Shown here piece after piece: positions 1 to 2,838 of a stretch of DNA of 50,314 nucleotides (positions within the stretch are counted from its first letter, which is position 1; each line of letters begins with the position of its first letter). The position numbers and the translations under genes were made by a program. Source of the stretch: Candidatus Venteria ishoeyi. Lineage in GTDB: Bacteria > Pseudomonadota > Gammaproteobacteria > Beggiatoales > Beggiatoaceae. The stretch is from contig NZ_JAUCGJ010000035.1 in assembly GCF_030378065.1 (NCBI RefSeq), positions 1-50,314 on the forward strand, given 5' to 3'. A model generated the notes under the pieces. The model saw only the letters and a list, made by a program, of their open reading frames with translations. It was not told the origin of the DNA and made no database searches.

Positions 1-151
1 CCTAAAAATGCTACTTTAGAGCATTTCTTACTGAGTTAGCTGAGTATCCTCAATAGCTTTGGTTGGAAGAAATTTTTTCCTTCTTGAAGAAAATCGGATA
101 CTTATTAAAATAGCTTTTTATTCAAAATAAATTAGAAGACATCCATAAAAT

Positions 152-213: not shown

Positions 214-1239
214 ATGCCCACACCACGCAAAGAACAAGTCAGTAAACACATTAACGGTCATTATCATTGCATCAGTCGCGCTGTGCGCCGCGCTTTTTTA
301 TGTGGTGTTGATAAGCAAAGTGGCTGCAATTATGAGCATAGACGGCAATGGATACTGGACAGGCTGGAAGTGCTTGCCAAGCAGTTTTCAGTTGAGGTTT
401 GCGCTTATGCCATTATGAGTAATCATTATCATCTGGTGCTGCATGTGGATTATGAGCAGAGTTTGACCTGGGATGCTGAGGAAGTGGTCAAGCGTTGGTG
501 TACCTTGTTTCCACCACAGGCGTTAAAAGATTCTGATGACAAACAAATTGATACTGAAGTGGTCAACGCTTATTTTGCGCGTCTGACAGCAGATGAGGAA
601 AAAGTGACCTTGTGGCGGGAACGTTTGGCAGATTTAAGCTGGTTTATGCGTTGTCTAAACGAGCCGATTGCACGCCAGGCCAACAAGGAAGATGAGTGTA
701 CCGGGCGCTTCTGGGAAGGGCGTTTCAAATCCCAGGCTTTGCTTGATGATGCCGCTTTAATTAGCTGCATGGCCTATGTTGACCTTAACCCGGTACGAGC
801 CGCCATTGCACAAACCCCGGAAGATTCTGAATTTACTTCTTTTGCAGCAAGAGTTGAGATTCAAAAAAAATCAGTCTCAAAACCAGAACCACAAAGCCAA
901 TGGCTTTTACCTTTCGCTGAGTCTAAAAAGACCGGGAAACCTCAAGCCACGCAAAATGCACATATTTGCCTGCCCATCAGTCAGAAAGAATACTTTGAAC
1001 TGGTCGATTGGACTGGGCGTTGTATTCGTGATGGTAAGCGTGGCGCTATTCCTGCGCATATTCGACCCATTTTGCAACGTCTGGAAATTAAGCAAGACAA
1101 CTGGATAGATGGCATACAGCATTACGGTAATCATTTTTATAAGGTTGTTGGTATCATGCGGCATTTGCTGGAAGAAACTGAAAGGCAGGGGCGTAAATGG
1201 TTTAAGGGGCAGAGTGCTGCCCGCTTGTTATACCAATAG
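214..1239 (+). CDS. REP-associated tyrosine (Y1/HUH) transposase
   Basis: This 341-residue protein belongs to the Y1_Tnp/RAYT family, single-strand DNA nucleases related to IS200/IS605 TnpA that are linked to REP palindromes. The HUH-type metal site is visible as SNHYHLV near residue 70. The probable nucleophilic tyrosine lies in AYVDLNPVRA near residue 193, the usual RAYT context for that Tyr. The start ATG follows a GAGGG ribosome site at 201-205. No TnpB or accessory IS gene is adjacent and no flanking direct repeats were recognised, so it is a domesticated or solitary transposase rather than a complete IS. The C-terminal 120 residues extend beyond the catalytic domain and resemble the DNA-binding tail of long RAYTs. 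It may relate to the palindromic repeats elsewhere in the window, but that link is inferred. Confidence 0.88.
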   Translation: MPTPRKEQVSKHINGHYHCISRAVRRAFLCGVDKQSGCNYEHRRQWILDRLEVLAKQFSVEVCAYAIMSNHYHLVLHVDYEQSLTWDAEEVVKRWCTLFPPQALKDSDDKQIDTEVVNAYFARLTADEEKVTLWRERLADLSWFMRCLNEPIARQANKEDECTGRFWEGRFKSQALLDDAALISCMAYVDLNPVRAAIAQTPEDSEFTSFAARVEIQKKSVSKPEPQSQWLLPFAESKKTGKPQATQNAHICLPISQKEYFELVDWTGRCIRDGKRGAIPAHIRPILQRLEIKQDNWIDGIQHYGNHFYKVVGIMRHLLEETERQGRKWFKGQSAARLLYQ

Positions 1240-1408
1240 CTGATATTTTCATTTCTCATTAAGTTATATTTATGGCACTAAACGACTTGCCATAGGTGGG
1301 TTATGGCTGATTTCTGGTTTTTTTCATATGATCGGGCTGTTTTTCCTGGTTTATCTCTGAATTTTATAATTTGACTTGGCTGAGGAAATAGAATGATAGT
1401 GTTTTTTT
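1240..1408. other. Non-coding spacer after the transposase
   Basis: No convincing ORF or terminator is visible here. The stretch is AT-rich and leads into the tandem repeat array. Confidence 0.5.
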
Positions 1409-1757
1409 ATTTTTTTAATTTATTGGCTGTCTGGTAATTTTGGCTATTTTTTTAATTTATTGGCTGTCTGGTAATTTTGGCTTTGTTTTATTTTTTTAAT
1501 TTATTGGCTGTCTGGTAATTTTGGCTTGGTAATTTTGGCTTGGTAATTTTGGCTTGGTAATTTTGGCTTGGTAATTTTGGCTTGGTAATTTTGGCTTGGT
1601 AATTTTGGCTTGGTAATTTTTTGTCTGGTAATTTTGTCTGGTAATTTCCTCTGGTAATTTTGGTCTGGTAATTTTGTCTGGTCTGGTAATTTCTGGTTTG
1701 GTAATTTCTGGTTTGGTAATTTCTGTCTGGTAATTTTGTCAGTCGTCTGGTAATTTG
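1409..1757. repeat. Tandem TGGTAATTT array (37-bp and 14-bp units)
   Basis: Three 37-bp units start at 1409, 1446 and 1490, each ending in TGGTAATTTTGGCT. The array then becomes eight copies of TGGTAATTTT spaced exactly 14 bp apart (starts 1513, 1527, 1541, 1555, 1569, 1583, 1597, 1611). Nine more irregular copies of TGGTAATT follow up to about 1757 (for example at 1626, 1639, 1652, 1666, 1684 and 1748). The total is about 19 copies. An open frame on the minus strand through this array is a 14-residue periodic artefact of the 14-bp unit. Confidence 0.93.
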
Positions 1758-1857
1758 GTCTAGGCGCGCTTGCAGCGGTTGCCGTGGAAAAATGCTAAAA
1801 TCGGCTTTCAAAAAGCGGCAACACAATAAGGAACAAAATGGCCAGGAAAGCAGGCAA

Positions 1858-1926
1858 GTAGGGTGGGCAAAATTCCGTCCACTGAATTTTGGAATTTCAC
1901 TGAGCGTTCACGGAATTTCGCCCACC
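1858..1926. repeat. Inverted-repeat element GTAGGGTGGGC, copy 1
   Basis: Arms of 17 bp (1862-1878 and 1910-1926) are complementary with one mismatch. The left flank AGGCAAGTAG recurs in the second copy near 2763. The element follows a possible truncated reading frame (ATG GCC AGG AAA GCA GGC AAG TAG, with an AAGGA upstream), so it may have inserted into a small gene. The remainder, 1927-2016, contains no gene that I can name. Confidence 0.7.
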
Positions 1927-2016
1927 GTTTACCAAGTCTGGCACATTGGTGGGCTTCTCTTCGGTCAACTCCGTATCCCCGATGCCAAAAAACTCATAGC
2001 AGAGGTACTCTGATCC

Positions 2017-2667
2017 ATGTCATCCGTTAAGCTGGTCTTCATCTCCGATACCCACGGCCTGCACCGCAATCTAAAGCCGGGTTCCGGTGATATTCTGATT
2101 CACTGCGGTGATTTTAGCAGGCGTGACAGCCTTGAGAGCGTGGAAGACTTTGCCAGGTTCATGGCGCGGCAGGATTTCAAGCATAAAATAGTCATCGCCG
2201 GAAACCATGACTGGTGTTTTGAGGATCAGCGGCGGGAACAGGCGGAAGCTGTGTTGCGTGATCACGCTATCCACTATCTGAATGATTCCGGCATACAGCT
2301 TGACGGTCTCAACTTCTGGGGTTCTCCCGTGCAACCGGCGTTTATGAACTGGGCTTTTAACCGTGAGCGTGGCTCGGACATTCGCCGCCACTGGGCGCTT
2401 GTTCCCGATAAGACCGATGTATTGATTACCCACGGCCCGGTATTCGGGATACTGGATCGTTGTCGCGGTGGACATCGCGCGGGGTGCGAGGATTTATTGG
2501 CAACAGTGCAACGCATCAAACCGCGCATCCACGCCTGCGGTCATATTCATGAAAGCTATGGTCAAATAGAAAAAGAGGGCATCTTGTTTCTTAATACCTC
2601 CAATCTGGATGAACATTACCGTTTGGCGAACTCACCAATTCGTTACGAATTAAAATACCAATCATGA
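2017..2667 (+). CDS. Calcineurin-like metallophosphoesterase
   Basis: This 216-residue dinuclear-metal phosphoesterase is of the MPPED/YfcE-like type and its substrate is unknown. All family motifs are visible: SDTHG near residue 10 (DxH), CGD near 31, GNHDW near 62, THGP near 130 and GHIH near 171. There is no signal peptide, so it is probably cytoplasmic. The start is supported by AGAGG at 2001-2005, although the 11-nt spacing is long. Its TGA stop overlaps the ATG of a decayed type I restriction R gene (ATGA, 2664-2667). This suggests it was once translationally coupled to a restriction-modification operon, where such phosphoesterases do occur as accessory genes. Its present role is not evident. 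Confidence 0.9.
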   Translation: MSSVKLVFISDTHGLHRNLKPGSGDILIHCGDFSRRDSLESVEDFARFMARQDFKHKIVIAGNHDWCFEDQRREQAEAVLRDHAIHYLNDSGIQLDGLNFWGSPVQPAFMNWAFNRERGSDIRRHWALVPDKTDVLITHGPVFGILDRCRGGHRAGCEDLLATVQRIKPRIHACGHIHESYGQIEKEGILFLNTSNLDEHYRLANSPIRYELKYQS

Positions 2668-2763
2668 AATTTACCGAAGCCAAACTCGAACAAGCCTTCA
2701 TCACCCTGTTGGAATAACAGGGCTACCCGCACTATCCAGGCGATAGCTTCAGCCGTTCACCCA
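2664..2763 (+). pseudogene. hsdR: Remnant of type I restriction enzyme R subunit (N-terminus)
   Basis: From the ATG at 2664 the frame reads MKFTEAKLEQAFITLLE, meets TAA at 2715-2717, and continues in frame as QGYPHYPGDSFSRSP. This matches, from memory, the usual N-terminus of a class of HsdR proteins (a MKFTEAKLEQ start followed by an LLG.QGYPH-like segment). The stop can be explained by one base change in a GAA or CAA codon. The homology ends where the second GTAG-TGGG inverted-repeat element begins, so only about 33 codons remain. The ATG overlaps the phosphoesterase stop by 4 bp. The identification rests on a short match. Confidence 0.6.
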
Positions 2764-2838
2764 GGCAAGTAGTGGGTAAAATGCCGATTAAGACCGTACA
2801 AAAATTCAATGTAATGGCGGCGTTTCGTCCACCCTACC
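2762..2838. repeat. Inverted-repeat element GTAGGGTGGGC, copy 2
   Basis: The left end CAGGCAAGTAGTGGGTAAAA (2762-2781) resembles the left end of copy 1 (CAGGCAAGTAGGGTGGGCAA) with a 2-bp deletion. The right end, near 2819-2838, is CGGCGTTTCGTCCACCCTAC, whose complement begins GTAGGGTGGACG. It truncates the hsdR remnant and lies just downstream of the V-ATPase gene. Confidence 0.6.

Follow-up and report, generated by a model that had tools for sequence, protein, structure and literature searches.

A 50,314-nt stretch of DNA from Candidatus Venteria ishoeyi (the window; contig NZ_JAUCGJ010000035.1 of assembly GCF_030378065.1, from a genome of 4.41 Mb) appears to carry two separate mobile things that happen to lie side by side. 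One is an insertion sequence (IS) spanning about 129 to about 1440, which encodes a 341-aa transposase, is bounded by ends of its own and seems to have amplified these ends by itself; the other is a worn, GTAG-tagged REPIN (a paired form of the repetitive extragenic palindromic, REP, sequences), probably belonging to a canonical RAYT (REP-associated tyrosine transposase). We give this reading, drawn from sequence comparison, a probability of roughly 0.7, and in it the closeness of the REPIN pieces to the IS is coincidental. The original prediction made on this DNA had proposed that the 341-aa protein, as a RAYT, mobilises two neighbouring inverted-repeat elements; it named both kinds of parts correctly, a transposase of the RAYT superfamily and GTAG-tagged relatives of REP/REPIN sequences, and it is the connection between them that found no support.

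The open reading frame at 214-1239 is intact and carries NHYH at residue 70, FWEGRF at residue 166 and YVDLNP at residue 188; in an alignment of 22 transposase relatives H71, H73, E168 and Y188-P193 are invariant and W167 nearly so. The NCBIfam model NF047646 (REP-associated tyrosine transposase) matches the protein partially, with 44.4 bits against a cut-off of 80, a Pfam search gave nothing at E 0.001 and a sequence search of the Protein Data Bank gave 0 hits. The AlphaFold model is of moderate quality (mean pLDDT, the predicted local distance difference test, 69.6; mostly low past about residue 220), and its closest fold in Foldseek, the sole match below 0.001, is 4er8, the RAYT-REP complex of E. 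coli (E 4.1e-4), with the transposases of ISDra2 and IS608 as the next nearest. The intact frame, the motifs and the 4er8-like fold therefore confirm the earlier call of a RAYT at the level of the superfamily, even with an NF047646 score under its cut-off. Judged by length, motifs and copy number, it is a HUH/tyrosine transposase of the TnpA_Y1 subclass 2.3 type: NHYH, WE and YVDLNP are all present, the size is close to the usual 325 aa or so, and there are several copies per genome. The genome of Ca. V. ishoeyi holds nine full-length copies with 92-100% identity and about 18 fragments, several of them cut by contig ends, and nested or tandem copies are seen on contigs C65 (at 9828 and 11488) and C57 (at 4305 and 4956). 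Two of its copies, L009 (G000:C60:1410-5432) and L011 (G000:C86:80112-84134), were seen by eye to adjoin CRISPR-like repeat arrays; at L011 the repeats that flank the element left and right are oppositely oriented, and the spacers differ among those compared.

Comparison of the copies and of relatives revealed an inverted core at the ends of the element, which reads GACANCC on the upstream side of the gene and GGNTGTC on the downstream side. This core was counted in 89 elements, namely the nine own full-length copies and 80 named relatives, the latter being the best 80 of at least 555 confirmed relatives. GACANCC lies within 150 nt upstream of 74 of the 89 and GGNTGTC within 350 nt downstream of 56, compared with 1 and 5 for the wrong orientation, 3 and 1 for the reversed letters and, for the same motif 1 kb farther out, 3/80 upstream and 5/76 downstream. 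The innermost core was picked automatically, and at a few loci (e.g., L144, L152 and L209) a spurious match nearby was probably taken instead. The core was also found in records labelled complete (12 fetched out of the 16 plasmid records with a match; H8 and H14-H16 were left out), on the left in 8 and on the right in 7. Within the own genome a left-end query gave 27 matches at E<=1, the weakest of them short, and a 217-nt right-arm query gave 44, with many weak ones short. Folded as a single strand, the left end gives no hairpin (z +1.64). By these comparisons the element at 129-1440 has ends of its own, GACANCC/GGNTGTC, which are unrelated to GTAG. Rows of several end modules are seen at L010 and at L273 (Pseudoalteromonas shioyasakiensis plasmid p1); upstream of position 1501 in the latter there are five left-end cores, 36-45 nt apart, ahead of one transposase gene. 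Additionally, the element lies beside the isocitrate dehydrogenase gene in two Pseudoalteromonas loci (L269 and L273), and a third (L278) has matching flanks without the element. By eye, the inserted DNA extends beyond the element by no more than about 16 nt on its left side and about 23 nt on its right, and a clear duplication of the target is not apparent; L278, which is divergent, was the one empty site that flank searches yielded and was used only roughly.

Flanking the core on its outer side is a copy-specific tip, about 8-11 nt in length. Because identical tips turn up at separate loci of the own genome (L011/L023, L009/L029 and L008/L017), the tip belongs to the element; a derivation of the tips from the target site was rejected on these grounds. 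By eye, the left tip at L150 may be able to pair with bases immediately inward of the core. In the window the right end is followed by a tandem array, at 1408-1756 with the end itself, which the original prediction did not mention and which is the more interesting feature of the locus, being the amplified right end of an IS. Tandem Repeats Finder resolves it into a period of 37 (x3.0) and a period of 14 (x15.8). It amounts to 18 extra copies of the tip, the most among the 44 ends measured, with an inward match of 0-27 nt and an outward match of 9-14 nt, and of the 22 occurrences of GGTAATTT on both strands of the whole window 19 fall in the array or at the true end. Such recurrence is not restricted to the window: at 47 of 132 ends the last 8 bases of the tip are found again, unchanged, in the 100 nt lying outward (133 ends were located, and one was dropped for having less than 140 nt outside), compared with 7 for the reversed tip, 2.9 for shuffled tips, 0.8% in the flanks of other elements and 18/390 for 8-mers lying farther out. 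The 90 extra copies measured at 44 ends have a steady outer limit (outward match at least 7 nt by construction, median 10.5, quartiles 9-12) and a variable inner one (median 2, quartiles 0-4, maximum 27), and arrays occur at both kinds of end, left and right.

Similar arrays are found at other types of element. The pattern GACANCCA...TGGNTGTC with a middle of 15-45 nt, taken to mark small nonautonomous elements, occurs five times in G002, a second genome carrying the transposase, and twice in the own genome (control pattern, 2 and 1), and the full GACACCC/GGGTGTC is present in five of these seven; one of them, a 46-bp element (L253, G002:C1:143007-143052), has long arrays of its own tip on both sides by eye. 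At L038 (G000:C21:53840-57175) a shorter RAYT-type gene (227-aa frame) occurs in two tandem copies with GGGGACGC ends, and its right end is followed by inner-truncated copies that all end at the same TTTTAATC; end arrays are also present at L265, which like L038 is a shorter RAYT-type element whose ends have the form GGGG[AT]C. Among nine such shorter loci GGGG[AT]C[AG][CG] was found at facing places in five (L038, L259, L260, L262 and L265) and was not found there in the other four (L258, L261, L263 and L264). From ends and length our guess is that these shorter elements belong to subclass 2.1.

The neighbouring inverted repeats are of a different kind. The one at 1858-1926 has 17-nt arms that are 94% complementary, and its single-stranded fold beats 200/200 shuffles (z -4.23); the hairpin at 2762-2838 is degenerate (z -0.62, with 41/200 shuffles folding equally well). 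A complete relative in the same genome, C44:47405-47565, is 161 nt long and consists of GTAG, hairpin, spacer, hairpin and CTAC; the first piece aligns to its positions 1-77 and the second to 88-161, and this alignment marks 1858-1954 and 2762-2838 as eroded remnants of the same type of long two-hairpin GTAG REPIN. The prediction of two related inverted repeats therefore holds for the first as a real hairpin and for the second as a member of the genomic family (E 5.2e-8), although the second is weak as a hairpin. The flank AGGCAAGTAG that both were said to share is present, but the GTAG within it is the tag of the element itself, and AGGCAA stands before GTAG in 0/6 other contexts (two of which are both ends of one element). 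The pair of 11-mers is not significant within the window alone (2 matches with at most one mismatch; 2 were reached in 12/100 shuffles), and in the 4.41-Mb genome GTAGGGTGGGC occurs 7 times versus 1 for the reversed pattern. Collecting genomic copies and looking for a GTAG-type tag at a hairpin foot, as had been suggested, brought out GTAG-hairpin-hairpin-CTAC relatives: GTAG...CTAC elements of 161 nt in L003 and L122, from different genera, one of 154 nt in L002, and elements of 55-76 nt with the same GTAG/CTAC ends in other genera (L128, L129 and L136). The family thus shows the GTAG at the hairpin foot and the inverted pairs of REP/REPIN sequences; its half-units of about 69-77 nt, instead of the short unit of 20-40 bp, make it a long variant.

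In favour of a mobilisation of the two neighbouring GTAGGGTGGGC elements by the 341-aa protein, both elements lie within 1.6 kb of the transposase, and transposase and elements alike belong to the RAYT/REP world. Their distributions are nevertheless independent. Among 42 genomes of the order Beggiatoales the transposase (match threshold E<=1e-10) is present in two, the own genome and G002, and the GTAGGGTGGGC motif in 30, among which G002 is not; a single genome can hold as many as 359 hits. Near the transposase GTAGGGTG[GC]GC was found in 0/80 named relatives (430 kb of fetched DNA) and in 1/9 own full copies, namely that of the window. Additionally, the transposase has different ends of its own, and it is another RAYT, on contig C19, that adjoins a REPIN piece. 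The 341-aa protein was rejected as the mover of the GTAG elements on distribution and on the absence of the motif near the 80 relatives, and we regard this reading as very improbable. The presence of the elements in relatives without a RAYT, which had been named beforehand as the observation that would speak against it, was indeed made as far as this RAYT is concerned (2/42 versus 30/42 genomes). Other RAYTs are common, with an NF047646 match over the cut-off in 34/42 genomes, and the GTAG elements are therefore not shown to live without any RAYT. The more likely partner is a canonical RAYT such as the one at C19:12649-13098, which scores over the NF047646 cut-off and has the 3' part of a REPIN (C19:12522-12615) about 35 bp upstream of the match. 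In G007 a RAYT lies between such GTAG hairpins, with a row of four at one of its sides, and GGTGGGC or its complement occurs 17 times in the 17.5 kb that surrounds 30 RAYT genes to a distance of 300 nt versus 22 times in 63.8 kb farther away. The link is suggestive only, because G004 has the motif (16 hits) and no NF047646 match at E<=1e-5. The coordinates of the features are collected in Table 1.

Table 1. Features of the IS and its surroundings (positions in the window).
Position	Strand	Feature	Evidence
129..144	+	Left end of IS: tip AAATTAGAA (129-137) and core GACATCC (138-144)	Core counts; left-end query matches
214..1239	+	HUH/Y1 transposase, TnpA_Y1 subclass 2.3 type, 341 aa	Open reading frame, motifs, profile, fold, copies
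1240..1424	+	Noncoding right arm of IS	217-nt right-arm query matches in own genome
1425..1440	+	Right end of IS: core GGCTGTC (1425-1431) and tip TGGTAATTT (1432-1440)	Copy comparison, core counts
1441..1756	+	Tandem array of inner-truncated right-end copies, each with GGTAATTT; 2 long, then 16 short, and filler	Tandem Repeats Finder, extra-copy count
1858..1926	+	5' part of GTAG REPIN: GTAG tag and hairpin	Relative positions 1-77, 81% identity; z -4.23
1945..1954	+	ATTGGTGGGC, resembling the beginning of hairpin 2; the 5' piece breaks off after it	By eye against the 161-nt relative
2017..2667	+	Calcineurin-like phosphoesterase gene, intact, 216 aa, between the REPIN pieces	PF00149, E 1.7e-12
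2762..2838	+	3' part of the same kind of REPIN (second hairpin, CTAC end), degenerate, after AGGCAAGTAG	Relative positions 88-161, 76% identity, E 5.2e-8

Between the phosphoesterase gene and the second REPIN piece there is a short frame (2665-2760) with an internal stop, which ends at that piece. It presumably resembles the N-terminus of a type I restriction subunit, and this resemblance is the basis of the view that the repeat truncates a restriction gene.

The element at 129-1440 would belong to a branch of the RAYT superfamily bounded by terminal inverted repeats (TIRs), the 'TIRtron' type, whose transposase acts on its own GACANCC/GGNTGTC ends. From the copy number, the common terminal core, the travelling copy-specific tips and the outward arrays, all read directly from the DNA, we infer steps of nicking and re-copying. 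The transposase may nick at the tip's outer border, cutting the strand that has its 3' end at that point; once freed, this 3' end would slip back onto an inner stretch of the end, be copied out to the terminus again and be rejoined, so that each round would leave one more inner-truncated copy. More speculatively, two inverted ends might pair and one tip might be copied from the other, and ordinary slippage can have lengthened some arrays later. In a bolder reading, TIR-bounded relatives of RAYTs would keep a running record of their own nicking, in which any cleavage at the tip can leave an end copy that is whole on the outer side and cut short on the inner, paired ends may copy tips from each other, and the arrays would be an observable intermediate on the way from transposon ends to free, amplified REP-like repeats; this is a speculation that we hold tentatively, and on balance it is doubtful.

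Other origins of the arrays have to be weighed against it. Ordinary minisatellite slippage at A/T-rich ends, with the transposase uninvolved, would account for the regular 14-mer that is repeated about eight times in part of the window array, the tips being A/T-rich and A/T runs prone to slippage; it is unlikely, since the extra copies keep their outer limit (quartiles 9-12 nt from the core) whereas the inner one ranges over 0-27 nt, since 8-mers farther out recur in only 18/390, and since arrays are found at both kinds of end, at a small nonautonomous element and at L038 and L265. Whole elements might also have inserted repeatedly into their own ends and then lost their interiors by deletion, or the arrays might stem from recombination between nested copies; the nested and tandem copies on C65 and C57 and the rows of end modules at L273 and L010 speak for this. 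Beyond the tip, however, many copies hold just 0-4 nt of the core (median 2); to produce them, a great number of deletions would have had to stop a few bases from the terminus, and we consider self-insertion rather unlikely. Assembly artefacts of repeats in draft genomes come to mind because many of the loci are from metagenome-assembled genomes or contig ends; with arrays inside a 1.45-Mb contig (L142), a 6.6-Mb chromosome record (L161) and complete-labelled records (L267, L270 and L277) this explanation is extremely improbable.

Several observations weigh against the reading of an IS with self-amplified ends beside a REPIN of a canonical RAYT. The core was first spotted in the very sequences later used for counting, elements that share one genome are not independent of each other, and there is no upstream core within 150 nt in 15/89 elements and no downstream core within 350 nt in 33/89, for which decay, contig ends or other ends may be the explanation. 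The empty site is approximate, with flanks 80-89% alike, and does not fix the exact base; the position of cleavage is deduced from the array edges. In the records labelled complete tip recurrence is present, yet rarer than in the first set, at just 3/15 ends (shuffles 0.07, reversed 0), the 14-mer part of the window array might be ordinary slippage following one founding event, and the small nonautonomous elements scarcely outnumber their control pattern, so that this count taken alone tells little. As to the canonical RAYTs, the hits in G004 stand without an NF047646 match, and GGTGGGC lies within 300 nt of just 6/30 RAYT loci. Left and right tips resemble each other more within an element than between elements (4.82 versus 3.88 of 10; 0/5000 permutations), with striking matches in a few (L178, L187 and L016, 9 of 10 each), but the likeness is mostly in the two bases beside the core: over the outer 8 positions it is 3.49 versus 3.21, which 192/5000 composition-keeping shuffles reach, and in the own genome alone it is 6.43 within versus 5.95 between elements. 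The matching of left and right tips is weakened by this control, and our confidence in both the preferred explanation and the record of nicking was therefore slightly lowered.

Subclass 2.3 is spread across many Gammaproteobacteria and was published without recognisable ends; defined ends would turn it into an annotatable mobile element with testable substrates, and the end arrays bear on how REP-like repeats arise from IS ends. A literature search, with most subscription papers outside its reach, found no published description of subclass 2.3 ends. The ends of the element may thus be undescribed in the literature found, and the runs of end fragments may show how REP-like repeats arise.

Among the closest known systems is TnpA_Y1 subclass 2.3 itself, for which the available text of Quentin et al. 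(2018; PMC6006769) gives a median of 325 aa, a median HuH-to-Y distance of 110, several copies per genome and a mostly gammaproteobacterial distribution. The transposase of the window resembles it in its 341 aa, its NHYH, WE and YVDLNP motifs, its H71-to-Y188 distance and its multicopy state (Table 1 of that paper). It differs in the 92-100% identity of its copies, compared with a published subclass mean of 74.8%, and in the conserved inverted ends and tandem end copies seen in the own genome and in many of the relatives examined, whereas the same text reports no identifiable REP-like flanking structures for subclass 2.3 and finds typical IS features in none but the IS200-like subclass. With IS200/IS605 elements (IS608, ISDra2) it shares the HUH-Y1 core and a mobile multicopy gene; it differs from them (subclass 1.1) in its 341 aa with a C-terminal extension, in YVDLNP in place of Y---Q (Y--NQ) and in a left end without hairpin (only the left end was folded). 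With the RAYT/REP systems (REPtrons, REPINs) it shares the fold nearest to 4er8, and the neighbouring 1858-1926 and 2762-2838 are of the REP kind. Low copy number and low inter-copy identity, which the available text of Quentin et al. assigns to class 2 except 2.3, are not seen in its nine full copies at 92-100%, and the gene is not flanked by GTAG-tagged hairpins of its own; it is multicopy, its inverted ends are not hairpins of the GTAG type, and its occurrence does not follow that of the GTAG motif. TIRYTs/TIRtrons, in the portion available of Di Nocera et al. (2013; PMC3733652), are RAYT-like genes between inverted repeats unrelated to GTAG REPs, with the TIR repeats also occurring as small families, and of the 26 published TIRYTs the available text of PMC6006769 assigns 20 to subclass 2.1 and the remaining 6 to 2.2 and 2.5. 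The gene of the window likewise lies between inverted repeats unrelated to GTAG; the TIRtron core GGGGWSAS, a majority but not universal feature in PMC3733652, overlaps the core of the IS as well as GGACACCC, and GACANCC overlaps, without being identical to it, GGGGACAC of the shorter element L265. What sets the IS of the window and its relatives apart from the TIRtrons, as these are described in the available part of PMC3733652, are the copy-specific tips and the outward arrays of end fragments.

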